From positions 1-36,732 of the IMG/VR virus record IMGVR_UViG_3300048006_000307: a stretch of 36,732 nt of DNA; one strand, 5' to 3'. The translations under genes were made by a program, and so were the position numbers. Each line of letters starts with the position of its first letter. Position 1 is the stretch's first letter. This document shows positions 1 to 34,952 of this stretch, in pieces. The notes under the pieces were generated by a model that saw only the letters and a list, made by a program, of their open reading frames with translations, had not been told where the DNA came from and ran no database searches. Source of the stretch: a virus.

Positions 1-103
1 GATCCGTTTATTTAATATCACAGTAGACAAGGTCGGATCTAACACCCTGTTTTATGTGTTGGTTTCTAATAGATTAACGCGCCAGCACCAATACTATTTG
101 AAT
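1..103. other. Gene-free left edge
   Basis: No open frame with coding character is seen here. The stretch holds late promoter copy 1 and its presumed leader. A short inverted pair GATCCG (1-6) and CGGATC (34-39), and a weak ACAC/GTGT hairpin near 43-60, are visible; both are too small to interpret. Confidence 0.5.
75..103 (-). promoter_or_regulatory. Putative phage late promoter, copy 1 (leftward)
   Basis: On the minus strand this reads ATTCAAA, 15 bases, then CGCGTTA, followed by an A/T-rich stretch. The same two boxes with the same spacer occur at four other places, all in front of late genes. Here the upstream box starts one base after the stop codon of the sigma-like gene (104-631), so the promoter drives genes beyond the left edge. 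The spacer also keeps GGTGCT, as in copies 4 and 5. Confidence 0.7.
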
Positions 104-631
104 TTATTTTAAAAACTTTTCAGCCTTTGCCATTACTGCACTAACACGTGAATTCATAGTGTAGTAAGTTACATCGTAATCTATGGCCAAATGGTTTATT
201 AATTTGCCTTCCCCGTAAACTTGCCAGATTAATTCGAACTCGTCTGCTCTAAGATATTGGCGTAGAGATTCAAGAGCTAAGCGAGTATCTATTGCATCAA
301 ACACATCTTCCTGTGCATCAACCATATAACTGTTCTCGGCTTGATCTTCATCATTGCTGTCTACAAAGTCAACATTTTCCTGGTAAGCTGAATTACGTTT
401 GTAAGTTTTAAGCTTGTTAGACATACTCGTATGTAGATAAGACATCACGGTACGTTCCACGGATCCATTAAGTTCCAATTGATCTAAGTTCATGATCAAG
501 TTGTAGTAGCTGACCTGGAAAGCATCTTCGACGTTATCAGGTTGCCAAGTCTTGAACTTGTGCTTAAGAGTTTCTACCTGCGAATAGTTCTTACTGATGA
601 AGTTATCTACTTCTGTTTTTGTTAGATTCAT
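104..631 (-). CDS. ECF-like RNA polymerase sigma factor
   Basis: The 175-residue protein has the two-domain plan of ECF (group 4) sigma factors. Residues about 10-85 look like region 2: VEDAFQVSYYNL corresponds to the usual DxxQexF helix, and SYLHTSMSNKLKTYKRN to the conserved WLxxiarNxxxDxxR helix. An acidic linker (about 86-112) leads to region 4 (about 115-175), ending in a helix-turn-helix, HLAIDYDVTYYTMNSRVSAV, the place of the family's EIAxxLgxsxgTVksRlxrA. It is the last gene of a leftward early operon starting near 1796, two bases after its neighbour. I infer that it directs host core polymerase to the phage ATTCAAA-N15-CGCGTTA promoters, one of which follows its stop codon. It is divergent, so another HTH regulator is possible but less likely. 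Confidence 0.72.
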   Translation of the reverse strand: MNLTKTEVDNFISKNYSQVETLKHKFKTWQPDNVEDAFQVSYYNLIMNLDQLELNGSVERTVMSYLHTSMSNKLKTYKRNSAYQENVDFVDSNDEDQAENSYMVDAQEDVFDAIDTRLALESLRQYLRADEFELIWQVYGEGKLINHLAIDYDVTYYTMNSRVSAVMAKAEKFLK

Positions 632-632
632 G

Positions 633-851
633 TTAGAGGTTATTTGTGTAGTTTCCTATTGTGCCACGCTTTACGTGGATTGTTATTTTGGCCTTGTCCT
701 GTTTTGTCATTAGACTTAAAAAGTCAAACAGCTTCTGAAATGCAAGTTGTGGGTATTGTCCTTGCAATATGATCTGATCCTTGTATCCTGTGATCACGAT
801 TTCAGTATACAGATTATTTGTTTTCTCGAATGTTGTATTCATAGTCGTCAT
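633..851 (-). CDS. Hypothetical small protein (72 aa)
   Basis: A short soluble protein without recognisable family. Its start lies inside the 3' end of the upstream 49-residue gene (38-base overlap); a second in-frame ATG three codons on is an alternative start. It ends one base before the sigma-like gene, so the two are probably translated from one early message. No signal peptide, membrane segment or cysteine motif is visible. Confidence 0.6.
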   Translation of the reverse strand: MTTMNTTFEKTNNLYTEIVITGYKDQIILQGQYPQLAFQKLFDFLSLMTKQDKAKITIHVKRGTIGNYTNNL

Positions 852-963
852 CGTTTACTAAGTTAATAATTTCTGAAATATTCAGATTGTCTTCTCCGAG
901 CTTAGCACGTAGATAAGCTACGTCTGCAATAAGCTGTAATGTTTCGGTTGATAATTTGTACAT
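814..963 (-). CDS. Hypothetical small acidic protein (49 aa)
   Basis: I read an ATG at 963 and a TAA at 814-816 on the minus strand. The product begins MYKLSTETLQLIADVAYLRA and ends in an acidic stretch (NDDDYEYNIRENK). Helical, soluble, no family recognised. It fits the operon spacing: 12 bases downstream of the preceding gene and overlapping the next. Codon use matches the neighbours, which favours a real gene over a chance frame. Confidence 0.55.
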   Translation of the reverse strand: MYKLSTETLQLIADVAYLRAKLGEDNLNISEIINLVNDDDYEYNIRENK

Positions 964-975
964 AGCAAATATATA

Positions 976-1215
976 TTAAGATGTTTTTTTATCGAGCATT
1001 CCCGTTACTAATTCATAAATAGGTGATGGTGCGTAGCACAATTCCCATTGATCAAAAGTATCTTCTGTCTCAAAATTAACAATGAAGTTCATTGCATCGT
1101 ATTCATACCAGCTTCCTGTCTCTTCTACGATTCGATATAGTAAACCTTCTACGTATAAATATCCGTCTTGGTATTCCATATCAAAGTTAATGCTTTCTGT
1201 GTCTGTGTATTCCAT
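976..1215 (-). CDS. Hypothetical acidic protein (79 aa)
   Basis: A strongly acidic small protein rich in Asp, Glu and Tyr (for example MEYTDTESINFDMEYQDGYL). Its ATG lies one base after the stop of the 51-residue gene upstream, so the pair is tightly linked in the early operon that ends in the sigma-like gene. Acidic early phage proteins are often DNA mimics or inhibitors of host enzymes, but nothing here proves that. Confidence 0.6.
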   Translation of the reverse strand: MEYTDTESINFDMEYQDGYLYVEGLLYRIVEETGSWYEYDAMNFIVNFETEDTFDQWELCYAPSPIYELVTGMLDKKTS

Positions 1216-1216
1216 A

Positions 1217-1372
1217 TTAGTTTTTGTTTAGTAAGAATTGAACGTGCTTTGTATATACATCCAATTGTAGGTTAATATCTTCTAATTCTTCTGGGTATAT
1301 TTCCAGTTCCTGTTTTAGTTCTGTGATGTCCATTAATAGCTCTGTTACATCATCGAGCATCCAGTTAATCAT
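1217..1372 (-). CDS. Hypothetical helical protein (51 aa)
   Basis: ATG at 1372, TAA at 1217-1219 on the minus strand. The product (MINWMLDDVTELLMDITELK onwards) has heptad-like Leu/Ile spacing, suggesting a short coiled coil. No family recognised. A motif TTTGGCACAATAATTTCACT lies about 20-40 bases upstream (1393-1412), partly inside the end of the upstream gene, and recurs in front of the lipoprotein gene ending at 33395. Confidence 0.55.
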   Translation of the reverse strand: MINWMLDDVTELLMDITELKQELEIYPEELEDINLQLDVYTKHVQFLLNKN

Positions 1373-1392
1373 AGTTTGTTGTTTTGTGTATT

Positions 1393-1412
1393 AGTGAAAT
1401 TATTGTGCCAAA
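1393..1412 (-). promoter_or_regulatory. Repeated motif TTTGGCACAAT-N-ATTTCACT, copy 1
   Basis: The motif overlaps the last codons of gene 1400-1585 and ends 20 bases before the ATG of 1217-1372. A copy with one difference lies at 33427-33446, also before a start codon. The TTTG could serve as a Bacteroidota -33 box, but no clear TAnnTTTG follows, so the role is uncertain. Confidence 0.3.
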
Positions 1413-1585
1413 GGTAGTTGATCTGCATTTAATATTTCGATCTTATGCTCGATCTTGTTGGCGATTAAGTACTTGCGAAATGCTTCCACGTTTCTGATAA
1501 CGTATGTTTCAGTGTGTGGTAGGTAGCACATTGATCCACCTTGTGGGAATGGCTTGGTCGTTGTTAGTCGAATAAATGTTTTCAT
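1400..1585 (-). CDS. Hypothetical small protein (61 aa)
   Basis: A basic small protein starting MKTFIRLTTTKPFPQGGSMC. The second half (VRNVEAFRKYLIANKIEHKI-like) looks like an alpha/beta unit. No family recognised. It is the second gene after the early promoter near 1763-1796, and its ATG lies one base after the stop of the first gene. Confidence 0.6.
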   Translation of the reverse strand: MKTFIRLTTTKPFPQGGSMCYLPHTETYVIRNVEAFRKYLIANKIEHKIEILNADQLPLAQ

Positions 1586-1586
1586 A

Positions 1587-1739
1587 TTATAGTTGTTCTG
1601 CGTATAGCTCTAAGCCGTTATCAAATAAGATTTTGTTGTTCCAAGGGTGTATTGCTACGATTGTAATAACTTCTGTTACTTCTTTACCGAAAGCTAATGT
1701 TCTTGTGATTTCGAATTGCTGACCTTTTGAATATTTCAT
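1587..1739 (-). CDS. Hypothetical small protein, first gene of the sigma operon (50 aa)
   Basis: ATG at 1739, TAA at 1587-1589 on the minus strand. The product begins MKYSKGQQFEITRTLAFGKE and looks like a small beta-strand-rich protein. It follows directly after an early-type promoter and a leader made of repeated ACAA units. No family recognised. Position makes it the first gene of the seven-gene operon that ends with the ECF-like sigma. Confidence 0.6.
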   Translation of the reverse strand: MKYSKGQQFEITRTLAFGKEVTEVITIVAIHPWNNKILFDNGLELYAEQL

Positions 1740-1762
1740 GTGTTTGTTTGTTTGTTACATTG

Positions 1763-1796
1763 CAAATATACAACAAATATTTTAATCGCAAACGAT
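1763..1796 (-). promoter_or_regulatory. Early-type promoter A, in front of the sigma operon
   Basis: Minus strand: ATCGTTTG, 18 bases after the TTG, then TATATTTG, followed by CAATGTAAC. This is an exact fit to the Bacteroidota TTG / TAnnTTTG promoter pattern and the best copy of the eleven-member early family in the window. Confidence 0.75.
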
Positions 1797-1802
1797 AACC
1801 AC

Positions 1803-3373: not shown

Positions 3374-3402
3374 TAACGCGTCAGGTCACTATCTATTTGA
3401 AT
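3374..3402 (-). promoter_or_regulatory. Putative phage late promoter, copy 2 (lysis operon)
   Basis: Minus strand: ATTCAAA, 15 bases, CGCGTTA, then TTTAGA. The site lies 102 bases before the exported-protein gene and is the only promoter-like signal I see for the lysis operon. Its spacer departs from the GGGTGCTC of copies 4 and 5, which shows that the two boxes are the conserved core. Confidence 0.7.
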
Positions 3403-3450
3403 AGATCCCAAAATAAATTCTCTCTCTCGTACGTATGTGCTTCGCGGGAT

Positions 3451-3475
3451 TACTAGCATACTACTTATACTAGTA
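3451..3475. repeat. Inverted repeat 1 of the gene-free region
   Basis: TACTAGCATA and TATACTAGTA face each other across CTACT: 10-base arms with one mismatch. The element lies inside the first copy of the direct repeat AGCATACTACTWATACTAGT. Confidence 0.7.
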
Positions 3476-3480
3476 GCAGT

Positions 3481-3566
3481 TATACTCCTAAGGGTTATAA
3501 GGACACTAAGTATCATTACAACTGAAGAAACATTATTATATTTTTTTATATTCCCTTAGGGGTATA
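3481..3566. repeat. Inverted repeat 2: 14-base arms around a 58-base loop
   Basis: TATACTCCTAAGGG (3481-3494) pairs with CCCTTAGGGGTATA (3553-3566), with a single G-U pair. The loop is A/T-rich and contains a run of T at 3541-3547. Confidence 0.7.
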
Positions 3567-3649
3567 GGTGGTAGATAATAAAGTCTTCGCCAAATAAATG
3601 AACACTCATTGCTGATCGGCCTTTTTGAAGAATCAGTTGTAGTAGATAT

Positions 3650-3681
3650 GCTATCCTTACTTTTATTAGTAAGTGGATAGC
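3650..3681. repeat. Inverted repeat 3
   Basis: GCTATCC-TTAC and GTAA-GT-GGATAGC form an 11-bp hairpin with a two-base bulge and loop TTTTATTA. Its right arm runs into the second copy of the direct repeat at 3679-3698. Confidence 0.7.
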
Positions 3682-3938
3682 ATACTACTAATACTAGTTA
3701 TCCCGTACGTATGCGAAGGAATTAATAGCCTTTAAGAGCGGGTTCGATTTGTATTTATTCCAACCCGTATGTGAGTTACTTATTTAGACATATCACTACG
3801 TTCATATCTAGACCTCAACAATACATACATATTAGTGAGGTGGACTAAGTGCGTTAGAATGCAAATAAACATCCTCTACACACAAGAATGCCCAGACGTT
3901 AAGCCTAGGCATTTCATGTAATCTATCGTATGTGACTC

Positions 3939-4987: not shown

Positions 4988-5016
4988 ATTCAAACGGAAG
5001 GGGTTCGTACGCGTTA
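4988..5016 (+). promoter_or_regulatory. Putative phage late promoter, copy 3 (packaging genes)
   Basis: ATTCAAA, 15 bases (with GGGGTTC in the spacer), CGCGTTA, then TATAGATATA. It lies 233 bases upstream of the small terminase gene, leaving a long leader that contains the hairpin at 5097-5120. Confidence 0.72.
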
Positions 5017-5850: not shown

Positions 5851-7532
5851 TGTTGACGCAAAAACAATACGAGACCAAATGGCACGATGAGCTAATGGAG
5901 TTACCTCCATATGCTAAGACTCATGCTGTGGATCGTAGAATAGATTTTGATAAATTTATATTTGATCCGATCGAGGCAAAAAAAGTTTGTGTGTTTATTG
6001 AGCGCTTCTGTACAATTACGAAGGACGCTGAATTGGCCGGTCAACCTCTTAAGCTTGATCCATGGCAATGGCACATGCTTGGAAACATTTACGGCTGGAG
6101 AAGAATAAAGGACGGACATAGAAAATATCGCGATGTGTATATTCAAGGTGGACGGAAATTCGGTAAGACGAGTTTGAGTTCTGCACTTGTACTTTACCAC
6201 ATGATCACGGAGAAGGCAACTGAAGCTTATATCTTGGCGAGTACAGCAGCACAGGCAGCAATCGGTCTCGATATTACCAAGTCAATGGTATTCCAAAAGG
6301 AAGGACTTAAGAAATATATTCGTCCGTACAAGTTCGAGCTTGTGTGTGACAAAACAGGTTCGCGCTTTAAATCAATGTCAGCGAATCCAGATGCTGCTCA
6401 CGGACTTAACCCTTCGTTTGTTATTCTCGATGAGACTCACGTTTATGATTCTTGGGAATTGGTTGAGGTTATGAAAACGGGTATGGTTACACGTGCAAAC
6501 AGACTTATGATTTTGATCTCCACGCCTGGGTATGACGTAAGCAAACCTGGATATGATCATTACTTATATGCCAAAAAAGTCAACAACCTAGAAATCGACA
6601 ATGATGAGTTCTTCGCAATAATATTCGAAGCAGACTACGAAGCCCCAAAAGGAGTTGATCCTGATGAGTGGGACGAATTCTCGATTGAGCAACTTAAGAA
6701 AGCGAACCCTCGCTGGGAGCACTCGCCAACACTACAGGAATATTTGATCAATGCAGCCGACAACGCTAGACAAAATCCAAGTGAGCGTTTTGCATTTAGA
6801 GTACTGCACTTAGGTAAGTGGGTAAACAGTGCAAGCAGTTGGTTAGATCCCGCAATATGGAAATCTGGCGAGACAGAAATTAATATCACAGACAAGTTTA
6901 AAACAATGGATTGTGTTATTGGTGTTGACCTTGCAAACACGCGAGATATCACAGCTGTGACTGTGTTGTTCTGGGAAAACATGAACACTCCTCAGGAAAC
7001 CTATTATGCTATTCCGTTTGCCTGGATGCCAGCAGATCTAATTGCTGAAAATAGCAAGCGTGATAATGTGGATTATCGCAAGTGGGTGGAAATGGGATTC
7101 TTGGAAACCACGCCTGGTAACTTTACTGATTGGAACTTTATTCAGAAACGTATTTACGAGATCGCAGACGAGTACAATGTCATCAGTGTAGCTATTGACC
7201 CATGGAATGGTGGTAAGCTCGCTACCGACCTTTACAACGATGGTATACCAGTTGAAATGATCAAACAGTCAATTCAGTCATTATCCTTTCCTACTAAGAG
7301 TATGGAAAAGGCTATCTACGACAAAAGATTTAATTTTGAACCTAACTCGCTGTACACCTGGCAAGCTGGTAATGTTGTAATATACCAAGATGCTAGCGCA
7401 AACATTCGTATTGACAAGTCAAAGGCCGCTCACAAAATAGATTCCATTGCCGCTACTGTTAACTGCTTTGCATATGTTGAGGCACACAGAGAGGAATTGG
7501 CAGCCGGCGATATTGAAATTTTCATGATCTAA
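5850..7532 (+). CDS. terL: Phage terminase large subunit
   Basis: 560 residues, full length for the Terminase_1 family (HK97-like). The N-terminal ATPase shows an adenine-binding stretch PWQWHMLGNIYGW (71-83), Walker A GGRKFGKTS (about 100-108), and Walker B FVILDETH with Asp194 and Glu195. The C-terminal RNase H-like nuclease has acidic residues in IGVDLANTRD (Asp360), VAIDPWNGG (Asp450) and HKIDSIAA (Asp531). It packs DNA into the procapsid and cuts it. Late promoter copy 4 starts five bases after its stop codon. Confidence 0.97.
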   Translation: MLTQKQYETKWHDELMELPPYAKTHAVDRRIDFDKFIFDPIEAKKVCVFIERFCTITKDAELAGQPLKLDPWQWHMLGNIYGWRRIKDGHRKYRDVYIQGGRKFGKTSLSSALVLYHMITEKATEAYILASTAAQAAIGLDITKSMVFQKEGLKKYIRPYKFELVCDKTGSRFKSMSANPDAAHGLNPSFVILDETHVYDSWELVEVMKTGMVTRANRLMILISTPGYDVSKPGYDHYLYAKKVNNLEIDNDEFFAIIFEADYEAPKGVDPDEWDEFSIEQLKKANPRWEHSPTLQEYLINAADNARQNPSERFAFRVLHLGKWVNSASSWLDPAIWKSGETEINITDKFKTMDCVIGVDLANTRDITAVTVLFWENMNTPQETYYAIPFAWMPADLIAENSKRDNVDYRKWVEMGFLETTPGNFTDWNFIQKRIYEIADEYNVISVAIDPWNGGKLATDLYNDGIPVEMIKQSIQSLSFPTKSMEKAIYDKRFNFEPNSLYTWQAGNVVIYQDASANIRIDKSKAAHKIDSIAATVNCFAYVEAHREELAAGDIEIFMI

Positions 7533-7537
7533 GTATC

Positions 7538-7566
7538 ATTCAAATACAAAGGGTGCTCGCGCGTTA
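7538..7566 (+). promoter_or_regulatory. Putative phage late promoter, copy 4 (portal/capsid genes)
   Basis: ATTCAAA, 15 bases including GGGTGCTCG, CGCGTTA, then TAATAATA. It lies in the 69-base gap between large terminase and portal, 35 bases before the portal ATG. Together with copy 5 it shares a near-identical spacer, so these two may be the strongest versions. Confidence 0.8.
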
Positions 7567-7601
7567 TAATAATATAAACGTTTACTAATCAACACATTTT
7601 T

Positions 7602-8876
7602 ATGGGACTCCTAGATAATCTAGCAAAACGCTTCAATGCAACTGTACCAGCTACAGATCAAGAAGCAATTGCAGCATACAAGGAGAGAGCCTATTCATTC
7701 GAAGATGATTTCACAAGCGCAGACAAACTAACTAAGAAGAAGGCACTTAAGTCTTCTGCAGTCTACGCATCAGTTCGTGTTATCTCTCAAGCAATTTCTG
7801 GTCTTCCACTATCTGTAAAGAAGTACGAAGGATCAAATCAAGTTATTGACTACAACCACCCTGTCTATAAGTTATTTAATTATGCTCCCAACAGCGTACA
7901 AACGTGCGTAGAATTTAAGGAGCTTATGTTAACTGATTTGTTACTAGACGGGAATTTTTATGCGGTAATAAAAAGAGACCGCAGAATGAACCCAACCGCT
8001 CTCTATCGTTTACCAGCTGAATCAATGACCATTATAAAAACAGGTCTTGATAAAGTTGAGTACACTTACATGCCACCAGCAGAAGAAGGAAAGGCAATGA
8101 AGCCAATCCTTTACAAGTCTGATGACATCTTACATATTAAAGGACAATCATTGGACGGATACATTGGTATTAGTCCATTATTTTTTGGCGAAGCAATGAT
8201 CAAGACTGACATAGAAACACGTCAGTACTCTCTTAGCTTTATCGAAAATGGTGCTCACTTCAATGGTTACCTTCAAGCTAATGCTCCTCTTAAGAAAGAG
8301 CAAATTGATTCTATTGCTAGAGCTTGGCAAAAGTCTTACTCTGGATCTAAGAAGACCAACAAGACTCCAATCATTCCTTCTAACTTAGAATTCAAACAAC
8401 GTTCGCTTACTCCTGCTCAGGCTCAACTTATCGAGTCTGCTCAATTTGGTATTGGCGACATCGCTCGTTTGTTCGGAGTACCTCCACACTTAATTGGTGA
8501 CTTGGAGAGATCAACGAATAACAACATCGAGCAACAATCACGAGAATTTTTGCAGTACACACTAGGTCCTTGGTTAAGTAAAATCGAGGCAGAAGTATGT
8601 CGCAAGCTTCTTCGTGAAAGAGAAAAAACAACTACTGTTGTAGATTTCGACACACGTTCTTATTTAAGAGCGACTGCTGCCGATCGCGCACAGTACTATA
8701 ATACACTATTTAATTTGGGAGCTTTAACGCCAAATGAGATTCGTTCTCAAGAAGGTCTTAACCCAGTAGAAAATGGTGATACTCCTTTTGTACAGGTTAA
8801 TCTTGCTCGTCTTGATCAAGCAGGTATTGTAGAGGAAACGGAAGTTAACGACAGCGAGGAAAATCTGTCTAACTAA
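7602..8876 (+). CDS. Phage portal protein, HK97 family
   Basis: 424 residues. Family signatures: SAVYASVRVISQAISGLPLS near residue 50, the stem/clip region LLLDGNFYAVIKRD, DDILHIKGQSLDGYIGISPL, and the C-terminal IARLFGVPPHLIGDLERSTNNN block. The portal forms the 12-subunit ring at one capsid vertex through which DNA enters and to which the tail attaches. First gene after late promoter copy 4, followed after eight bases by the head protease. Confidence 0.96.
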   Translation: MGLLDNLAKRFNATVPATDQEAIAAYKERAYSFEDDFTSADKLTKKKALKSSAVYASVRVISQAISGLPLSVKKYEGSNQVIDYNHPVYKLFNYAPNSVQTCVEFKELMLTDLLLDGNFYAVIKRDRRMNPTALYRLPAESMTIIKTGLDKVEYTYMPPAEEGKAMKPILYKSDDILHIKGQSLDGYIGISPLFFGEAMIKTDIETRQYSLSFIENGAHFNGYLQANAPLKKEQIDSIARAWQKSYSGSKKTNKTPIIPSNLEFKQRSLTPAQAQLIESAQFGIGDIARLFGVPPHLIGDLERSTNNNIEQQSREFLQYTLGPWLSKIEAEVCRKLLREREKTTTVVDFDTRSYLRATAADRAQYYNTLFNLGALTPNEIRSQEGLNPVENGDTPFVQVNLARLDQAGIVEETEVNDSEENLSN

Positions 8877-13850: not shown

Positions 13851-13867
13851 GCTTACCCACAGTTTAT

Positions 13868-13904
13868 AAACCCCAACAGGCTTAGTTGCTTGCTGGGGTT
13901 TTTT
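13868..13904. terminator. Terminator between converging genes (probably bidirectional)
   Basis: A 13-bp stem (13869-13881 with 13888-13900, one mismatch, one G-U) closes loop TTAGTT and is followed by TTTTTT on the plus strand. The minus strand reads the same hairpin followed by TTTATAA. It stops the rightward head/tail-tube transcript and probably also the leftward gene 13909-14232. Confidence 0.85.
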
Positions 13905-13908
13905 GTGT

Positions 13909-14232
13909 TTAGTGGTTTGGCTCGATCATTTCAAGTAGCGTATCATCTACCCAAAAACGATCTATAACTTTTGCGAGTGCATCAAACTTACCTTCCAATA
14001 CAATAAAGAAGCAATTGTGCGAAGCAACTACTGAAGTCATGCTAATTCCATTATCGAATAAGTGGTTCATGAATTCTGAGCCATGTGGATTAAGAGCGTC
14101 TAATTCTACTCTAAAGTTATCGTTGATCAATAGATCGATCATGTCCATTTGCTGGATGTGGCTGCAAGTGCTAAATCCAAATTCTCCGTGTTGTGAATTA
14201 GCGAGGATGTTTAATTTTGTTTCGGTTTTCAT
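13909..14232 (-). CDS. Hypothetical protein, leftward gene inside the late block (107 aa)
   Basis: A soluble, Asp- and His-containing protein beginning MKTETKLNILANSQHGEFGF; no recognised family. It runs against the surrounding structural genes and has its own early-type promoter (14255-14289). With its upstream neighbour it forms a two-gene early insertion in the late operon. It is probably made early, unlike everything around it. Confidence 0.65.
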   Translation of the reverse strand: MKTETKLNILANSQHGEFGFSTCSHIQQMDMIDLLINDNFRVELDALNPHGSEFMNHLFDNGISMTSVVASHNCFFIVLEGKFDALAKVIDRFWVDDTLLEMIEPNH

Positions 14233-14254
14233 AATGTTTGTTTTTAATTACATC

Positions 14255-14289
14255 GTAAATATAAGAACTCCCGCCCGATCTATAACGAT
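14255..14289 (-). promoter_or_regulatory. Early-type promoter B
   Basis: Minus strand: ATCGTTA, 19 bases, TATATTTA, then CGATGTAAT and a leader AAAAACAAACATT before ATG. The -33 box has TTA instead of TTG. The spacer contains half of the inverted repeat at 14268-14300. Confidence 0.65.
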
Positions 14290-14306
14290 CGAGCAGGAAG
14301 TTTTTT
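14268..14306. repeat. Inverted repeat overlapping promoter B
   Basis: CTCCCGCCCGATC (14268-14280) faces GATCGAGCAGGAAG (14287-14300) across TATAAC, and the plus strand continues with six T. Read in the plus direction it looks like an imperfect terminator that would guard against leftover rightward transcription. In the minus direction the stem is more stable but lacks a T-run. Confidence 0.5.
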
Positions 14307-14309
14307 AGA

Positions 14310-14885
14310 TTATTTTTTTACTAATGTAATACCGTAGTAGCGAGCGGTTGTGCGAGGAGACTTAATAAATTTGTTAAGTGCTGTTTTGGCGTTCTTAATA
14401 TCTGTTACCTTAAGAGCTTGAATGATAGCAGACTCACGACCTAAGATGTTGTTGACGTTGTATTCTCCTTCTTGCATTGGTGTAAGTTGTCCACGTGGTC
14501 CAGTTGGTGTAACTACATTCTCTGTTGCTTCCTCTGTGGTGAATTCGAATTGTACCTCCTCGATGTCACTGTCGCCGTAGTAGTTTTTGTCCCAATCTAC
14601 CATGTGGTAAATAGCTTCGCTTAGGTAGATAATTTTGTATTTTACGTTTCTGTATCCACGCTCTGTGTATTGGTAGTCTTCAAATGAGTCTGTAAAGAAT
14701 AGACCTGTTTTGTATAGGCTTGTAAGTGTACGCTTAACTGTTGTGGCGTCCAATTGATCCTTTACCATTTTGATTACTTCTTCTGGACCTACGTCGCTGA
14801 ATCCTGGTTCTGCGTAGAAGTTTGTTGTGTTAACCAATGCCTTTACGATGATTGATTGGTTGTTGTTTAGTTTGATCGTTTTCAT
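14310..14885 (-). CDS. Putative winged-helix DNA-binding protein (191 aa)
   Basis: Residues about 8-100 look like a winged helix: an N-terminal helix, LDATTVKRTLTSLYKTGLFF in the place of the recognition helix and start of the wing, and a second strand (RGYRNVKYKIIYLSEAIYHM). After an acidic linker, the C-terminus (DIKNAKTALNKFIKSPRTTA...) resembles the C-terminus of the product of 31612-32001. It has early promoter C. A role as early regulator is plausible but unproved. Confidence 0.6.
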   Translation of the reverse strand: MKTIKLNNNQSIIVKALVNTTNFYAEPGFSDVGPEEVIKMVKDQLDATTVKRTLTSLYKTGLFFTDSFEDYQYTERGYRNVKYKIIYLSEAIYHMVDWDKNYYGDSDIEEVQFEFTTEEATENVVTPTGPRGQLTPMQEGEYNVNNILGRESAIIQALKVTDIKNAKTALNKFIKSPRTTARYYGITLVKK

Positions 14886-14981: not shown

Positions 14982-15010
14982 ATTCAAATAGAAGGGGTGC
15001 TCGCGCGTTA
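14982..15010 (+). promoter_or_regulatory. Putative phage late promoter, copy 5 (tail genes)
   Basis: ATTCAAA, 15 bases including GGGGTGCTCG, CGCGTTA, then TACTAATAA. It lies right after the leftward two-gene insertion and restarts rightward late transcription for the tail genes. The first gene begins 133 bases on, with an intrinsic terminator in between. Confidence 0.8.
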
Positions 15011-15058: not shown

Positions 15059-15099
15059 GTGGTGTCAGTGGCTTGGTTGTTGCTGACACCCACTTTTTT
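15059..15099 (+). terminator. Terminator or attenuator in the tail-gene leader
   Basis: GTGGTGTCAG pairs with CTGACACCCAC (one bulged C) around a 14-base loop and is followed by six T. It lies between late promoter copy 5 and the first tail gene, so transcripts starting near 15018 would end here as an RNA of about 80 bases unless termination is prevented. Confidence 0.75.
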
Positions 15100-21365: not shown

Positions 21366-22580
21366 ATGGCAAGTAAGAAATTTTATGCAGACTTAGAACT
21401 GCAAACTAATGTCAGGATCTCTGGAGACGGAGTAGATACCACAAATGGTGGTACCTCAGGTTCTGACAAGCTTATTACTTCTGGTGCTGTAAAGGCAGCA
21501 TTGGGGTCAAAAGCAAACATTAATGGTGCAGCTGCACAGGACTTCTCTACGAAGGACTTAACAGTTAACGGAGATCTTACCATAACTGGTAGCATCAACC
21601 AAGAAACCGTAAATGATCTTAACGTATCAGATCGCACGATCACGTTAAACAATGGTGGTACATTAGGTACTAACGAGTCTGGATTTATCATCGATGGTTC
21701 AGGTGTATCTACTGACGCTGAGCTTTACTATGATGGTGGCGACAATACTTGGTACATTAAAGAGTCTGATGTTGCTGCTGTAGCAATCTCTACTTTTGAT
21801 GGTGCTTATTCTAGTTTGACTGGAGCGCCTACTACATTTGCTCCTAGTGCTCACACTCACTCTGCTTCAGAGATCGACAGTGGTACATTTGCTAATGCAC
21901 GTATTTCAGAAGGTAGTGTAACTCAGCACGAAGCTGCACTAAGTGTTGCTTATTCTCAGTTGACTTCTGTTCCAACTACGTTTGCTCCTTCAGCTCACAA
22001 CCATGCTGCTGCAGATATTAATTCTGGAACTTTTGCTGATGCTCGTATAGCTCAATCTAACGTTACTCAGCACGAGGCAGCTTTAGGTATTGACTGGTCT
22101 CAGTTATCTAGTGTTCCTACTTCGTTTGTTGCTGCTGCACACAACCATGCCGCTTCAGATATCAACAGTGGTACATTTAGTGATGCTCGTATAGCTCAGT
22201 CTAACGTTACTCAATATCAGGCTGCATTATTGATCGAGGCTTCTCAGATCAATTCAGGAAGTATGGCTGATGCTCGTATAGCTCAGTCTAACGTTACTCA
22301 GCACGAAGCTGCACTAAGCATCGGTTGGTCTCAGTTAACTTCTGTTCCTAACTTCCACAAGACGTACACTAAAGCTATTGCTGCTGCTACTTCTGCTACT
22401 GCTACATTGGCAAATGCTACTGAGGTAACAAACGCATTGGTTCAGGTTATCGACAGCAATGGTGCTTTGATCGATTGTCAGGTCGTTAAAAATGGTTCAG
22501 ACGTTGAGGTAAGTCTTGATGTTGCTGTAACTGGAACTATCGTAATTACTACATTCACTGCAGCTGCTACAGCTCTTTAA
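21366..22580 (+). CDS. Tail fibre protein with H-x-H repeats
   Basis: 404 residues. The N-terminal part is beta-rich (DLTVNGDLTITGSINQETVN, then ISDRTITLNNGG-like stretch). Residues about 145-330 hold three full and one shortened copy of a roughly 48-residue unit: SSLTGAPTTFAPSAHTHSAS, EIDSGTFANARISEGSVTQH, EAAL. The AHTHS/AHNHA pairs are typical of metal-binding trimeric fibre shafts (as in T4 gp37). The C-terminal about 75 residues repeat the domain of the previous protein (ALVQVIDSNGALIDCQVV). Probable trimeric fibre. Confidence 0.8.
   Translation: MASKKFYADLELQTNVRISGDGVDTTNGGTSGSDKLITSGAVKAALGSKANINGAAAQDFSTKDLTVNGDLTITGSINQETVNDLNVSDRTITLNNGGTLGTNESGFIIDGSGVSTDAELYYDGGDNTWYIKESDVAAVAISTFDGAYSSLTGAPTTFAPSAHTHSASEIDSGTFANARISEGSVTQHEAALSVAYSQLTSVPTTFAPSAHNHAAADINSGTFADARIAQSNVTQHEAALGIDWSQLSSVPTSFVAAAHNHAASDINSGTFSDARIAQSNVTQYQAALLIEASQINSGSMADARIAQSNVTQHEAALSIGWSQLTSVPNFHKTYTKAIAAATSATATLANATEVTNALVQVIDSNGALIDCQVVKNGSDVEVSLDVAVTGTIVITTFTAAATAL
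21804..22350 (+). repeat. Coding tandem repeats of the fibre gene
   Basis: Three units of about 144 bases and a shortened fourth, encoding the PTTFAPSAHNHA - SDINSGTFADARIAQSNVTQ pattern. Several stretches are near identical in DNA (GCTCGTATAGCTCARTCTAA four times), so unit number may vary by recombination. Confidence 0.8.
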
Positions 22581-29907: not shown

Positions 29908-30195
29908 TTATTCGAACCAGTAAGTCATTTTAGAGATTGTCATGTTTCTGTCTTGGCGAATCTCGTTTACTACTGCAGGAAGATCCTTTGAGTAGTTGTC
30001 CTTTCCTTCCTTTCCGTTTGTTAGGATATTAAGGACGTGCTTTTGATGGTATGTCATACTTCCAAATGATCTGCCCATTTCTGAAGCTAATTCTCTCTTG
30101 GCTAATGTTACATCCATTCTGGTTACTTTGTTGAGGTAACCGTTTACGAAGTAGTTAAGTTCTTCGATACTGAAATTTTGATTTGCGTTTTCCAT
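29908..30195 (-). CDS. Hypothetical early protein (95 aa)
   Basis: A helical soluble protein (MENANQNFSIEELNYFVNGY...), with many basic residues in the C-terminal half. No recognised family. Expressed from early promoter D; the leader is unusually long (about 55 bases) and contains five ACAA-type units. Last gene of the leftward early cluster. Confidence 0.62.
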   Translation of the reverse strand: MENANQNFSIEELNYFVNGYLNKVTRMDVTLAKRELASEMGRSFGSMTYHQKHVLNILTNGKEGKDNYSKDLPAVVNEIRQDRNMTISKMTYWFE

Positions 30196-30254
30196 TTTGT
30201 TTGTTTGTTTGTTTGTTAATGAAAGAAGTAAAGTACGTTGTAATTAATTACATT

Positions 30255-30289
30255 GTAAATATACGGAATCTATTTTTAATAACAACGAT
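30255..30289 (-). promoter_or_regulatory. Early-type promoter D
   Basis: Minus strand: ATCGTTG, 19 bases, TATATTTA, CAATGTAAT. It drives 29908-30195 and lies directly behind the stop of the gene 30296-30604. Confidence 0.75.
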
Positions 30290-30295
30290 GTTTTT

Positions 30296-30604
30296 TTATT
30301 TAATCCAAATTAATTTTCCTTCGTCTGAAATAGACTGACGTAACGCCAAACCAGAGTCTAAGCGATCGCCCCATCCTTTCTCGATCATGATTTCCTTTGA
30401 AGCCGTTCTGGTTCTGCTAAATAGATCTAGTAGGTCTCCTACCGTTCCTGTCCAGCCGTTGTCGCTTAGCACCCAAGTACCTTCGTGAAGATTCCAAAGT
30501 GTTTGTTGTTCTGTTGTTGTTAGGAATTTAAGTCTTCCTAATCCTGTGCCTCCGAAGAATGTTACTCCTAAGCTAAGTCCTGTTTCTGTTTCGAATCGTG
30601 TCAT
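30296..30604 (-). CDS. Hypothetical early protein (102 aa)
   Basis: Starts MTRFETETGLSLGVTFFGGT. The frame is open ten codons further upstream to a TTG at 30634, but that part overlaps the promoter (-7 box), so the ATG at 30604 is the likely start. The product has Trp- and Leu-rich parts (WNLHEGTWVLSDNGWTGTVG). No family recognised. Confidence 0.65.
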   Translation of the reverse strand: MTRFETETGLSLGVTFFGGTGLGRLKFLTTTEQQTLWNLHEGTWVLSDNGWTGTVGDLLDLFSRTRTASKEIMIEKGWGDRLDSGLALRQSISDEGKLIWIK

Positions 30605-30630
30605 AATAGTTTTTGTTTGTTTGTTACATG

Positions 30631-30665
30631 GCAAATATACGGACTCCGTTTATATCTGCAACGAT
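30631..30665 (-). promoter_or_regulatory. Early-type promoter E
   Basis: Minus strand: ATCGTTG, 19 bases, TATATTTG, CCATGTAAC. An exact TAnnTTTG -7 box; drives 30296-30604. Confidence 0.78.
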
Positions 30666-30685
30666 TATTTGAAAAAAAGTTTAAA

Positions 30686-31105
30686 TTATTTTTTGATCTT
30701 AAAAACTGAGATAATTCTCTTGCGACCAGAAAAGTTTCTGGAATCGCTAATGCCTTCGTTGTCGACTCCAATTGCGTGACCTTTTACTAGGACGTAGTAG
30801 TTGTATCCTGTGTTTGCACCAACGTGTGCATTGATAAAACTTTCTGCTGTGTATCTACCTTTGCGAGAGTTGTTTGGATTAATTAATTCCTCGTCAGTTA
30901 ATTTTTCAAATCCTAATTCTGGTAGCATTTCCTTTTCTAGTGTCCAAAGGTTCATACCTCTTGAAGATTGTCTTCCGTATTGGCTACACCAAACGTGTGC
31001 ATCTTCGTAGTTACCTGTTAGTGTTTGTGCCAATGCTCTGACTGTACAGTCGTTGTATTCTGTAATTGCTAGGTTACTGTCGCAGATGTAGTTTAAGTTT
31101 TTCAT
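30686..31105 (-). CDS. Putative papain-like cysteine peptidase fold protein (139 aa)
   Basis: The pattern EYNDCTVRALAQTLTGNYED near the N-terminus and LVKGHAIGVDNEGISDS near the C-terminus recur in a family of small phage proteins of papain-like fold. Cys20 and His110 would be the catalytic pair. GYNYYVLVKGHAIGV places the His on the expected strand. Whether it is an active peptidase or other transferase is unknown. Driven by early promoter F, it could act on a host target early in infection. Confidence 0.6.
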   Translation of the reverse strand: MKNLNYICDSNLAITEYNDCTVRALAQTLTGNYEDAHVWCSQYGRQSSRGMNLWTLEKEMLPELGFEKLTDEELINPNNSRKGRYTAESFINAHVGANTGYNYYVLVKGHAIGVDNEGISDSRNFSGRKRIISVFKIKK

Positions 31106-31127
31106 TGTAGTTGTTGTTTGTTACACT

Positions 31128-31161
31128 GTAAATGTACGACAACTTTTCTTTCCACAACGAT
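31128..31161 (-). promoter_or_regulatory. Early-type promoter F
   Basis: Minus strand: ATCGTTG, about 18 bases, TACATTTA, CAGTGTAAC, then a leader ACAAACAACAACTACA before ATG of 30686-31105. Confidence 0.75.
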
Positions 31162-31176
31162 AATTTGAAAAAAAAT

Positions 31177-31419
31177 TTAAAATATTTTCATCTGGCCTTC
31201 TACGTACACGGTATCGTTATGAAAGCTTGCGATAGAATCTGTGTATCGATCTATGCTTAGTGCCTGCACGTTGTATAGTGTGTCCTTATACATCCAAACC
31301 GAATCTAATGCGTAAACATCATAGTCCATTCTTATTTGTGCGTCGTAGGTCTCTATTGTGATTTCAGGAATCTCGCATGCGGTTAATGCAAGTAGACTCA
31401 ATGCGATTAGCTTCTTCAT
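31177..31419 (-). CDS. Small early lipoprotein (80 aa)
   Basis: The start MKKLIALSLLALTACEIPEI is a lipoprotein signal peptide with lipobox LTAC, so Cys15 would be lipidated. The mature part (about 65 aa) is acidic and Tyr-rich, with no recognised domain. Its ATG overlaps the previous stop (ATGA). It belongs to a three-gene early operon from promoter G. Phage lipoproteins made early often block superinfection (as Llp of T5 or Ltp of TP-J34), a reasonable guess here. Confidence 0.65.
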   Translation of the reverse strand: MKKLIALSLLALTACEIPEITIETYDAQIRMDYDVYALDSVWMYKDTLYNVQALSIDRYTDSIASFHNDTVYVEGQMKIF

Positions 31420-31610
31420 ACTTTGTCTTCTTTATAGATCCAAGCCTTGTTGTCCTTGATCATGAATCTGGTTTTGTAAATTTTAATTGTTGAGCCTTCA
31501 CTTGCAGACTTAAGAGATTTGCTTAAGCTTGTGTTGGCGTTCCGTAGATCCTTGCAACTGGTGTTGCTTACTATATAGTCTAGGACCTGTTGTTTGTTTT
31601 CTATTTTCAT
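31416..31610 (-). CDS. Hypothetical early basic protein (64 aa)
   Basis: A small Lys/Ser-rich protein (MKIENKQQVLDYIVSNTSCK...) with a predicted helix followed by two strands. Middle gene of the operon from promoter G: one base after its upstream neighbour and with an ATGA overlap to the lipoprotein gene. No family recognised. Confidence 0.6.
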   Translation of the reverse strand: MKIENKQQVLDYIVSNTSCKDLRNANTSLSKSLKSASEGSTIKIYKTRFMIKDNKAWIYKEDKV

Positions 31611-31611
31611 A

Positions 31612-32001
31612 TTAGTCTTCGATTGAGTGATTAAGTGAGTCTAAGATGATACGGTAACCGTAGATGTGAGACATAAAGCGTTTTGACTTAATGAACTTAC
31701 CTACTGATACACGAGCGTTCTTGCGATCAGGAGCAATGCCATTTTCTACGAAGTAGTCTACTAATTCAGAACCAGAGTAGTTAGCTTTGTAACCTTCTAA
31801 GTTAGCTACGAAAATAGTATCGTAGTTAATACGGGTACGCTTTTGTTTAGCAGGAGTAGGTTGAATTTTTGTGTACATTGTTTGTTTGCCAAACTTAGAG
31901 GTAATGAATTCGCCTTGTGCTGTTAATTTGTTTAGGCGGTAGCGAGCTTGATCGTAAGTTAGTTCGTTAGCTGCTGCGTAAAGTTTAATTGAAGTTGTCA
32001 T
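31612..32001 (-). CDS. Putative DNA-binding early protein (129 aa)
   Basis: The N-terminus (LYAAANELTYDQARYRLNKL, TAQGEFITSKFGKQ) has the look of a helix-turn-helix with wing. The C-terminal stretch DRKNARVSVGKFIKSKRFMS resembles that of the product of 14310-14885 (DIKNAKTALNKFIKSPRTTA); the two share KNA, KFIKS, and a following Tyr-Gly. The first codons (MTTSIK) are identical with those of 32355-32567 at the DNA level, as part of a copied promoter block. Function unknown. Confidence 0.62.
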   Translation of the reverse strand: MTTSIKLYAAANELTYDQARYRLNKLTAQGEFITSKFGKQTMYTKIQPTPAKQKRTRINYDTIFVANLEGYKANYSGSELVDYFVENGIAPDRKNARVSVGKFIKSKRFMSHIYGYRIILDSLNHSIED

Positions 32002-32023
32002 AATGTTTGTTTTTAATTACTTT

Positions 32024-32058
32024 GCTAATGTACGGGATCCGTTTTTAATAGCAACGAT
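32024..32058 (-). promoter_or_regulatory. Early-type promoter G
   Basis: Minus strand: ATCGTTG, 19 bases with GGATCCCG, TACATTAG, CAAAGTAAT. The -7 box departs from consensus in its second half (TTAG for TTTR). Confidence 0.65.
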
Positions 32059-32072
32059 TTATTTTTATTTTT

Positions 32073-32297
32073 TTACCAGACAAAGTTTTGTAGGTCGCTG
32101 AGGTTGATGATTGTTTCTTCGACCATTGGATCTACTGATTCCATCCAGATCATACCTTCTGCCTGTGTTCCAAATGCTTCGTGATCATAAACCATTCCTG
32201 TTTTTTGGTGAATGCCTTTTACGGTGAATGTAATAGCTGCTCCGGTTTTTGATGTTTCTAGTGTTAGTCCGTAGAAGGTGTTGTTTGAAGTTGTCAT
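32073..32297 (-). CDS. Hypothetical early protein (74 aa)
   Basis: MTTSNNTFYGLTLETSKTGA, followed by beta-strand-like parts and an acidic C-terminus. No family recognised. Single-gene unit from promoter H. Confidence 0.62.
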   Translation of the reverse strand: MTTSNNTFYGLTLETSKTGAAITFTVKGIHQKTGMVYDHEAFGTQAEGMIWMESVDPMVEETIINLSDLQNFVW

Positions 32298-32319
32298 AAT
32301 GTTTGTTTTTTGTTACACT

Positions 32320-32354
32320 GTAAATGTACGGGATCCGTTTTAATCTACAACGAT
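32320..32354 (-). promoter_or_regulatory. Early-type promoter H
   Basis: Minus strand: ATCGTTG, 19 bases ending GGATCCCG, TACATTTA, CAGTGTAAC. Nearly identical to promoter J over more than 40 bases, including the spacer. Confidence 0.78.
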
Positions 32355-32567
32355 TTATTTTAATTTAATTCGAACGATGTTATCAAAGTCTCCGTCGATA
32401 ATGCAGTTGGCAAATACGCCGTCACTTGAGTCTATAATTACTCGCTTACGGTTTATGTTGTGTCCTGTTAGGTTTAGGTCCTTAGCAATGTCTCTTGCTA
32501 GTTGTGCTCTTCTTGTAGCTCCTGAGACGATTTGATTTTGGATTGTGCGTTTAATTGAAGTTGTCAT
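32355..32567 (-). CDS. Hypothetical early basic protein (70 aa)
   Basis: MTTSIKRTIQNQIVSGATRR, followed by AQLARDIAKDLNLTGHNINR, which could be a helix-turn-helix, and a beta tail. Basic N-terminus suggests nucleic-acid binding; no family recognised. Single-gene unit from promoter I. Confidence 0.6.
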   Translation of the reverse strand: MTTSIKRTIQNQIVSGATRRAQLARDIAKDLNLTGHNINRKRVIIDSSDGVFANCIIDGDFDNIVRIKLK

Positions 32568-32589
32568 AATGTTTGTTTTTTGTTACACT

Positions 32590-32624
32590 GTAAATGTAAG
32601 ACACTTCCCGTTAGGTACAACGAT
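32590..32624 (-). promoter_or_regulatory. Early-type promoter I
   Basis: Minus strand: ATCGTTG, 19 bases, TACATTTA, CAGTGTAAC. The spacer differs from that of H and J, so only the boxes are conserved here. Confidence 0.75.
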
Positions 32625-32641
32625 GTTTTTAAAATTATTTC

Positions 32642-32675
32642 AAAAAAAATTCCGATACCATTTCTGATACCGGAA
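32642..32675 (-). terminator. Intrinsic terminator
   Basis: Minus strand: TTCCGGTATC, loop AGAAAT, GGTATCGGAA, then eight T (10-bp stem with two G-U pairs). It closes the leftward unit 34001-32716. Confidence 0.85.
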
Positions 32676-32715
32676 CTTGCCTGATCCTGACGGACTTGTC
32701 TAAGCAGGAACTCGT

Positions 32716-32970
32716 TTATCTAACTAAGCCTGTTGCTTCGTCAGTTGTAAATTCATCGCCGTGAGCTCTGATCTGAGCTTCCATTGATTTGTAGATCGGT
32801 ATGACCTTAGCCACATACTCACTCCATTGTTCGCGATACCATTCTGACTCTAGATCGTTATTGGATTCGCTTCTTGCTTTTTGACCTAGAACTTTTAAAG
32901 CGTTCAACATAGTCATAGCCTCTTCGTGATCTAAAGCGATCAGGATTTCGTTGCCTGTTAATGGGATCAT
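32716..32970 (-). CDS. Hypothetical protein (84 aa)
   Basis: An alpha-helical protein (MIPLTGNEILIALDHEEAMT, then MLNALKVLGQKARSESNNDL). Its ATG overlaps the stop of the lipoprotein gene (ATGA), so the two are coupled. No family recognised. Last gene before the terminator at 32642-32675. Confidence 0.62.
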   Translation of the reverse strand: MIPLTGNEILIALDHEEAMTMLNALKVLGQKARSESNNDLESEWYREQWSEYVAKVIPIYKSMEAQIRAHGDEFTTDEATGLVR

Positions 32971-33395
32971 AGTTCTGTTAGTATTAAAGTTTGAATATCC
33001 ATACCCATTCCGTGGTAGTTGGTTACTCGTGTTAAATTGATCTGGCCATTGTTATCGAGCAGGATCCATTCCTCAGTACCAATACTTAAAGCGGTATCGT
33101 TTTCGTTTGTGTAGAACTTAAACTGAGTTTCGAAGTTAACACCTAAGGTTGGAATTTGTGTGATCACAGAATCCATATTTAGCGTCCACATCATACCATT
33201 GTCAAATGCGAAGTAGCATAAATCGTCGAAGGTTTCCGAGGAGTTAATTCCACCTGCCCAGCCTGCGGTTGAAGCCGATAGCATATCTACTTTGTAGAAG
33301 CCGTTTGTGTTGTTTACTACGCCGAGGGTAGTGATTTCGTCTGTGCAGCTAAATAGAGTTAGTGCGGCAGCGATTGATAAGATTAGTTTTTTCAT
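32967..33395 (-). CDS. Early lipoprotein (142 aa)
   Basis: Signal peptide with lipobox: MKKLILSIAAALTLFSCTDE, lipidated Cys17. The mature part of about 125 residues is beta-rich with an acidic character and contains no recognised domain. Second lipoprotein of the early region. A motif TTTGGCACAAT-N-ATTTCACT lies 32-51 bases upstream of the start. Candidate for superinfection exclusion or envelope change; not proved. Confidence 0.68.
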   Translation of the reverse strand: MKKLILSIAAALTLFSCTDEITTLGVVNNTNGFYKVDMLSASTAGWAGGINSSETFDDLCYFAFDNGMMWTLNMDSVITQIPTLGVNFETQFKFYTNENDTALSIGTEEWILLDNNGQINLTRVTNYHGMGMDIQTLILTEL

Positions 33396-33426
33396 AATGT
33401 TTGTGTTTTTAGTTTATAGTATATAT

Positions 33427-33446
33427 AGTGAAATAATTGTGCCAAA
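33427..33446 (-). promoter_or_regulatory. Repeated motif TTTGGCACAAT-N-ATTTCACT, copy 2
   Basis: Lies between the 30-residue membrane protein gene and the lipoprotein gene, followed by an A/T-rich stretch (TATATATACTATAA). Differs in one base from the copy at 1393-1412. It could be an additional promoter of the lipoprotein gene. Confidence 0.35.
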
Positions 33447-33449
33447 GTT

Positions 33450-33542
33450 CTATTTGTTAGAATTTTTTTTCATTGTGTAGATCAGGTATCCGTTCCAGAG
33501 ACCGACGACTAATATGGCGATTACAATATCGATCTGGGTCAT
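33450..33542 (-). CDS. Very small membrane protein (30 aa)
   Basis: ATG at 33542, TAG at 33450-33452 on the minus strand. The product begins MTQIDIVIAILVVGLWNGYL: one membrane helix with a short basic tail (KKNSNK). Its start overlaps the stop of the previous gene as ATGA, which favours real translation despite the small size. Confidence 0.5.
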   Translation of the reverse strand: MTQIDIVIAILVVGLWNGYLIYTMKKNSNK

Positions 33543-33850
33543 GACTCTGTGTTTAGGATTTCTTCTATCTCTGCTAGGAATTCATCAACCTTAGACCAGT
33601 GTGCTACACGTTGAGCATCCATTTGCCAGTTACCATCCAAGTCGGTGTAGACTGTGAATGTTAAACTCTTGAATTCGAATACCCAAGTTAAAGCTGGGCC
33701 GAAGGTATAATCGGAGAATACTGGTTCGCCGAACACATAAGGAATGGTCTTAAGCATATCCTGTTGCTTGTCTGTTAGTGTGATGAGCTTCAATGGTACG
33801 CCAATTAAAGCATTCTGTGCATCACCTTTTACTCTTAGATTTCTGATCAT
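33539..33850 (-). CDS. Hypothetical protein (103 aa)
   Basis: MIRNLRVKGDAQNALIGVPL, with beta-rich middle (LTWVFEFKSLTFTVYTDLDG) and an acidic helix at the end. No family recognised. Second gene from promoter J, four bases after the 48-residue gene. Confidence 0.62.
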   Translation of the reverse strand: MIRNLRVKGDAQNALIGVPLKLITLTDKQQDMLKTIPYVFGEPVFSDYTFGPALTWVFEFKSLTFTVYTDLDGNWQMDAQRVAHWSKVDEFLAEIEEILNTES

Positions 33851-33854
33851 TTTC

Positions 33855-34001
33855 TTAGTTTTGAGAGTTAGTAAATACTTTTACCTTAGTTGGATCTACA
33901 AATGCGATTGTGTCCTCGATTTCCTTGGCAGTAAGACTACCGTAAAACCATTCGTTTCCTGTTGCTAAGATTCTGAAGTAAGTATCATATTTAGTTTCCA
34001 T
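33855..34001 (-). CDS. Hypothetical small protein (48 aa)
   Basis: ATG at 34001, TAA at 33855-33857 on the minus strand. The product begins METKYDTYFRILATGNEWFY and has an alpha/beta look. First gene of the unit from promoter J. No family recognised; spacing to promoter and to the next gene supports it. Confidence 0.6.
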   Translation of the reverse strand: METKYDTYFRILATGNEWFYGSLTAKEIEDTIAFVDPTKVKVFTNSQN

Positions 34002-34027
34002 TTGATCTATTTGTTTTTTGTTACACT

Positions 34028-34062
34028 GTAAATGTACGGGATCCGTTTTAATCTACAACGAT
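34028..34062 (-). promoter_or_regulatory. Early-type promoter J
   Basis: Minus strand: ATCGTTG, 19 bases ending GGATCCCG, TACATTTA, CAGTGTAAC. Near copy of promoter H, including the spacer. Confidence 0.78.
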
Positions 34063-34078
34063 AAAATAAAATATTTTT

Positions 34079-34360
34079 TTAGTTGTATTTGCGACCCCAA
34101 CCATCTACGTAATTGTAACCAGTTACTTCGTGATCGTCTTGAACTACCGGCTCACCATACTGCTTCTTAGTTTTACTTAGAGCAACTTGGAAGTTTTTCT
34201 TGTCCTTGTATTGATTGCCAATACCATTGTAACCGTCTGTCTTAAACATCCCGTACTCCTGAGTTCCATCTTCGTAGTAATAAACGTATAGGACTTTAAC
34301 GTACCAGCCTGCGTCGAAGCTGAAGTATTGTTGTCTGGTGATGTAGTTGGTTGTTGCCAT
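34079..34360 (-). CDS. Hypothetical protein (93 aa)
   Basis: Tyr- and Lys-rich (MATTNYITRQQYFSFDAGWY, YVYYYEDGTQEYGMFKTDGY). Repeated aromatic strands suggest a small beta protein. No family recognised. Single-gene unit from promoter K. Confidence 0.62.
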   Translation of the reverse strand: MATTNYITRQQYFSFDAGWYVKVLYVYYYEDGTQEYGMFKTDGYNGIGNQYKDKKNFQVALSKTKKQYGEPVVQDDHEVTGYNYVDGWGRKYN

Positions 34361-34383
34361 TTTGTTTGTTGTTTAATTACACT

Positions 34384-34417
34384 GCTAATATACGGGGCTT
34401 TTTTAAACTACAACGAT
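34384..34417 (-). promoter_or_regulatory. Early-type promoter K
   Basis: Minus strand: ATCGTTG, 18 bases, TATATTAG, CAGTGTAAT. The spacer (TAGTTTAAAAAAGCCCCG) is identical to that of promoter C in front of 14310-14885, 19 kb away. Confidence 0.7.
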
Positions 34418-34452
34418 GTTTCTGAAAAAAGTTTCAAATTTTTTTACAACAC

Positions 34453-34709: not shown

Positions 34710-34952
34710 TTATTTTTTATTAGTACTTACATATGTGCCAATATAGTTTCCTGCGAGGTAAGCCAGGATAATTGGTACGTTTCCTTCCTCTATAGCTTTG
34801 ATACCCATAAATACCATTGCCATGTTTATTAAGCCCAAGACTACTGAAATTCCAGCGGTCTTATGCTTTTCTCCGTTCATAGTTGTGTATATGATCAAGG
34901 TCTTAAATACACAGAAAACTACTTGCGAGAAAAATACGATAATCATTTCCAT
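34710..34952 (-). CDS. Small integral membrane protein (80 aa)
   Basis: Three hydrophobic segments (about 3-22, 32-50, 58-75), with AYLAGNYIGTYVSTNKK at the end. The ending and size recall the DUF5698/UPF0316 membrane family, a weak resemblance. Coupled to the DenV-like gene by TAATG. Function unknown. Confidence 0.55.
   Translation of the reverse strand: MEMIIVFFSQVVFCVFKTLIIYTTMNGEKHKTAGISVVLGLINMAMVFMGIKAIEEGNVPIILAYLAGNYIGTYVSTNKK

Follow-up and report, generated by a model that had tools for sequence, protein, structure and literature searches.

A predicted ECF-type sigma factor and its putative late promoters in a tailed phage that probably infects Bacteroidota

The IMG/VR virus record IMGVR_UViG_3300048006_000307, analysed over its entire length of 36,732 bases (hereafter the window), carries near its left end a minus-strand gene that probably encodes an ECF-type phage late sigma factor directing the host RNA polymerase to five late promoters (Table 1). 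The pairing of protein and promoters is inferred from a single genome that holds one sigma factor and one orphan promoter class, because its relatives show no second sigma-box set.

Table 1. Coordinates of the predicted sigma operon and of the putative late promoters in the window.
Feature	Position	Strand	Remarks
ECF-type sigma factor gene (predicted)	104..631	-	TIGR02937, phrog_1740; 175 aa
Six small ORFs upstream of sigma, same operon	633..1739	-	no significant families
Host-type (TTTG / TAnnTTTG) promoter of sigma operon	1755..1800	-	matrix scan, leave-one-out rank 1
Late box 1	75..103	-	abuts sigma stop codon, reads off contig end
Late box 2	3374..3402	-	96 nt upstream of lysis unit
Late box 3	4988..5016	+	227 nt upstream of small terminase gene (5250), large terminase next
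Late box 4	7538..7566	+	29 nt upstream of portal gene (7602)
Late box 5	14982..15010	+	127 nt upstream of tail unit

Genome organization

Family matches to terminases, portal, protease, major head, major tail and tape measure proteins identify a tailed phage. The plus-strand region 5250-29628 contains the virion genes, the lysis unit lies on the minus strand (3271-2217), small genes are abundant on the minus strand and 9.8% of the window is non-coding. The genome is incomplete, as the right contig end truncates a gene for a family B DNA polymerase. The host is probably a member of Bacteroidota, judging from the type of the early promoters. No tRNA gene or Rfam match was found across the window.

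Several other features were observed. A minus-strand gene (34952-35470) encodes a pyrimidine dimer DNA glycosylase of the endonuclease V type (Pfam E 7.9e-14, phrog_1183 E 1.4e-28). The tail-unit gene 21366-22580 (+) contains 144-nt tandem repeats (21800-22350) that are perhaps a repeated fibre module, and an extended non-coding region rich in TACTA/TAGTA (3410-3930) is a possible replication origin.

The sigma gene and its protein

The ORF starts with an ATG at 631 and ends with a TAA at 106-104, and the plus strand is interrupted by stops there; the ORF of the preliminary description thus exists, but its strand, which had not been named, is the minus strand. Its product is very probably a sigma factor. 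It matches TIGR02937 (sigma70-ECF) with an E value of 3.9e-8, residues 9-173 aligning on model positions 4-164/165, although at 33.1 bits it falls short of the curated cut-off of 42.9; none of six other proteins of the window scanned alongside matches this model. The sole PHROG recovered is phrog_1740 (RNA polymerase sigma factor), with an E value of 2.9e-5 over residues 6-174. The preliminary description had reported features of sigma regions 2 and 4 and had proposed a search against sigma families: the two profiles bear out the former, and the latter gave a nearly end-to-end, if sub-cut-off, TIGR02937 match and zero matches in Pfam, whose sigma models were included.

Domain limits read off the sequence delineate a sigma2 domain (about residues 9-80, with the stretch DAFQVSYYNL...SNKLKTYKRN), a linker of about 33 residues and a sigma4 domain (about residues 113-174) with the helix-turn-helix LAIDYDVTYYTMNSRVSAVMAKAEKFL. 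AlphaFold, run on the single sequence, gave a helical but poor model (pLDDT 49.6). Eight of its nine best fold matches in the PDB are ECF sigma factors, with E values of 0.66 or worse, none of which is significant. As the model is poor and these matches are insignificant, the identification is based on sequence profiles.

A probable early operon behind a host-type promoter

The sigma gene is the last of seven minus-strand ORFs (1739-1587, 1585-1400, 1372-1217, 1215-976, 963-814, 851-633 and 631-104) that overlap or are separated by small gaps. The promoters used by the primary sigma factor of Bacteroidota have TTTG at -33 and TAnnTTTG at -7 (PMC7366714), and a sequence of this type, GTTTG-N18-TATATTTG, precedes the operon. 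A matrix built from eleven such promoters of the window places all eleven on the minus strand, each in front of non-structural genes; no other contig carrying the early-promoter motif was found. Since a Bacteroidota-type promoter drives the operon, sigma would be made early, by the host holoenzyme, and the host would be a bacteroidote.

Other observations concern the early genes. Two early-promoted genes (13909-14885, -) lie within the plus-strand late cluster, between the head and tail units, and an apparent terminator, a hairpin with a T run, is located directly before them (about 13865-13910). A weaker match to the early matrix (11.6 bits; 15149-15104, -) points leftward to 14885 and overlaps the start of the tail unit. 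In the run of small genes at 30195-34422 (-), many have their own nearly identical promoter and leader; 32302-32354 and 34010-34062 are identical across 53 nt, as if a promoter cassette had spread by duplication.

Five putative late promoters

The sequence ATTCAAA-N15-CGCGTTA occurs five times in the window, and both of its blocks are invariant in all copies. Chance would give 0.21 occurrences, a figure to be read knowing that the pattern was derived from these very sites. With a leave-one-out matrix, each held-out box ranks first among 73,394 positions, scoring 29-49 bits where no non-site exceeds about 9 bits, and a matrix scan found no sixth copy in the window. The family was also recovered by a repeat search that made no use of prior knowledge. 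The spacer is partly conserved (G and C columns).

All five boxes are in non-coding DNA. The four that can be tested have a co-directional late unit within 230 nt downstream, a position that a randomly placed site would take with a probability of 0.029. The lysis unit (-) comprises 3271-2984, an Amidase_2 endolysin (2967-2563; amidase E 1.5e-16, phrog_822 E 3e-59) and an HNH gene (2645-2217), while the tail unit (+) begins with a tail chaperone-like gene (15144) and continues with the tape measure gene from 15803 onward. No TAnnTTTG was found upstream of the terminase, portal, tail and lysis units. Late units carry late boxes only and early units host-type promoters only (Fisher P 7e-4, for units defined by the analysts). 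Between box 5 and gene 15144, a terminator-like hairpin of 12 pairs is followed by a T run (15061-15096, +), which could attenuate the tail unit or create a need for antitermination.

The preliminary description had proposed a sigma gene closing an operon with a host-type promoter, its early production, a late promoter right after its stop codon and a set of five late promoter sites. The operon and the abutting box are found as described; the five sites hold through their leave-one-out ranks and their positions before the packaging, portal, tail and lysis units, and early production agrees with the promoter type.

Fit to the ECF class

ECF sigma factors typically recognize AAC at -35 and CGT at -10 and consist of two domains joined by a linker of less than 50 residues; they also commonly have an anti-sigma partner and are autoregulated, with known exceptions to autoregulation (PMC8103513). 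The protein has the ECF layout, that is, sigma2 and sigma4 alone with a short linker. If the boxes are its promoters, CGT is present in the -10 block CGCGTTA of all five, whereas the -35 block is ATTCAAA in all five and lacks AAC. This lowers the case for ECF membership but does not exclude it, because the hallmark derives from few studied ECF sigma factors (PMC8103513). No anti-sigma family was recognized among the neighbours in the operon, such a partner not being strictly required of an ECF sigma factor. Autoregulation is absent: the promoter upstream is of host type and the nearest late box is located downstream and points away. The features of a late sigma factor of the phrog_1740 type, namely the family match and shared bipartite boxes before late units, are both found.

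Search for relatives

Among 50,697 phage records, no sigma homologue was found up to an E value of 10 except a Bacillus phage sigma factor (E 0.2). Peptide patterns retrieved none from viral contigs, and 398 genomes of the order to which a Cryomorphaceae genome belongs gave no convincing one. The sole match among genome contigs (L103) was discarded as spurious, being a 19-residue stretch of an unrelated large protein. At the DNA level, the only relatives are two fragments (L002/L005 and L003; 99.5-99.7% identical), and L002 and L003 cover one box, 7538..7566, which is unchanged. Other box matches in viral contigs were set aside as chance occurrences by their appearance: nearly all are within ORFs, with no sigma gene nearby.

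Relatives of the large terminase (at most 36% identity) and of the DNA polymerase (about 50% identity) encode no sigma homologue within their fragments. An ECF-like gene does occur in two terminase relatives (G020 and G005), but both are GC-rich, have no comparable box set and were rejected. Another GC-rich, terminase-related phage contig, L175, carries an ECF-like sigma gene (6948-7877, +; phrog_1740 E 5.8e-8) that adjoins a replication-initiation-like gene and is a candidate for another phage sigma factor.

Proposed mechanism and alternatives

Taken together, the data suggest the following scheme, in which we infer the role of sigma as box reader, its timing, the assignment of domains to blocks and the bacteroidote host. 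The host holoenzyme would transcribe the sigma operon early from 1800-1755 (-). The sigma factor would then bind the host core RNA polymerase and steer it to the five promoters TCAAAT-N16-CGTTAT, ATTCAAA (-35) being read by sigma4 and CGCGTTA (-10) by sigma2. Packaging and head genes would be activated from 4988, with a boost at 7538, tail genes from 14982 and lysis genes, leftward, from 3402. The box at 103 would drive a unit that is not seen, leftward beyond the left contig end.

Several points count against this scheme: the -35 without AAC, the TIGR02937 score under its cut-off together with the negative Pfam result, the poor structure model, the absence of autoregulation and of a recognized anti-sigma partner, the finding of no homologous phage in which sigma and boxes vary in concert, and the partly conserved spacer, which a plain sigma promoter would not need. 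The spacer could reflect contact with an additional protein, as would be expected if the boxes were late promoters or operators of another phage regulator working with the host polymerase while sigma acts otherwise. Many early proteins match no family, three products (14885-14310, 32001-31612 and 30195-29908, all -) look helix-turn-helix-like by eye, and genes are missing, as the truncated DNA polymerase gene shows, so that another regulator may lie outside the contig. The preliminary description had stated that no other regulator is visible. This stands insofar as no known transcription-regulator family was matched among the other proteins scanned, but the argument is weak because so many early proteins are without family and the genome is incomplete. 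Known activator families are likewise absent from the scanned proteins, and an activator of the Firmicutes late type was rejected, since no Pfam or PHROG match was obtained. The two blocks with 16-17 nt spacing and a CGTT -10 have the very form of an ECF sigma target, and the boxes have no host-type -7 element beside them that an activator could assist. Another regulator is thus unlikely to be the reader, though it is the most serious competitor of the phage sigma factor.

It is less likely still that sigma retargets the polymerase to genes of the host, such as those of one of its ECF regulons, and that a host alternative sigma factor reads the late boxes. Bacillus phage sigma factors acting on host regulons do exist (PMC9429907), and Bacteroidota hosts are rich in ECF sigma factors (PMC7366714). 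However, a search of 2.9 million viral contigs found the exact box placed like a promoter nowhere but here and in the two nearly identical fragments, which argues against a host sigma factor because its promoter would be expected in other phages too; it would also be unusual for virion genes to depend on a host stress sigma factor. Finally, it is very improbable that the boxes are another kind of repeat (serving replication, packaging or transposition) or promoters that face the opposite way: most copies have on the opposite strand a TATTTG-like sequence resembling the host -7 element, but both ideas were rejected given the placement before late genes, as every testable copy points toward a late gene that lies downstream on its own strand, a sixth copy is lacking and, once reversed, at least three boxes would be antisense or without a gene ahead.

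Comparison with known sigma systems

The phage sigma factor proposed here is most comparable to SaPh711_gp47 of Salmonella phage 7-11, a late sigma factor proven in vitro with the host core enzyme, whose late promoters, GTAAtg-(16)-aCTA, are without AAC (PMC8948821). Both are small ECF-type sigma factors (185 aa for gp47, 175 aa here) that match phrog_1740; used as a yardstick, gp47 scores E 1.1e-38 with this family and 54.8 bits with TIGR02937. The late promoters of both are bipartite with a 16-nt spacer (here TCAAAT-N16-CGTT), and in both phages early genes lie behind promoters of the host primary sigma factor. By contrast, the two proteins are about 20% identical when crudely aligned, the boxes differ (GTAAtg and aCTA against ATTCAAA and CGCGTTA), no further relation to this 90-kb Salmonella phage was seen, and the activity is proven for gp47 but predicted here. 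Gp36 of phiEco32 is alike in that it is a phage sigma factor using the host core enzyme for middle and late genes, but it recognizes a single element, tAATGTAtA, and has no homology to region 4 (PMC8948821), whereas two elements and a predicted region 4 are found here.

With bacterial ECF sigma factors such as EcfG (PMC8103513), the protein has in common sigma2 and sigma4 only, the short linker and the CGTT -10. It differs by a -35 with AAA instead of AAC, by the lack of a visible anti-sigma factor and of autoregulation, and because its targets would be virion genes, not stress genes.

The phage sigma factors T4 gp55 and SPO1 gp28 and gp33-34 redirect the host polymerase to later (late or middle) genes, and they belong to other sequence groups and use other promoter elements than this sigma factor. 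In T4, the sliding clamp gp45 acts as the activator of late transcription (PMC2988020).

Novelty and significance

The mechanism itself is not new, because it is known from phages 7-11 and phiEco32. The novelty claimed by the preliminary description must be narrowed accordingly: an ECF-type late phage sigma factor has already been proven in 7-11 (PMC8948821), while the phylum of the host and the sequence of the promoters seem new. A search of the open-access literature, with subscription papers mostly outside it, turned up no ECF-type late sigma factor from a Bacteroidota phage, and this is apparently the first such factor described, together with its probable regulon. On balance, and by a modest preference, we regard this as the first Bacteroidota phage in which a two-step promoter switch is contained in one contig, with early promoters of host type, an ECF-type sigma factor that is made early and lacks close relatives, and a late promoter of its own. 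The partial conservation of the spacer in that promoter and the absence of AAC from its -35 would point to a new ECF specificity class.

The prediction is directly testable, as it involves one small protein and five short DNA sites, and the sigma-promoter pair could be used in Flavobacterium or Bacteroides as an orthogonal expression switch. The control of late genes is little described in the phages of Bacteroidota, whose hosts depend on a primary sigma factor and a promoter that are both unusual. If the proposed pairing is true, a self-contained sigma-promoter pair would show how early and late genes are divided in such phages.
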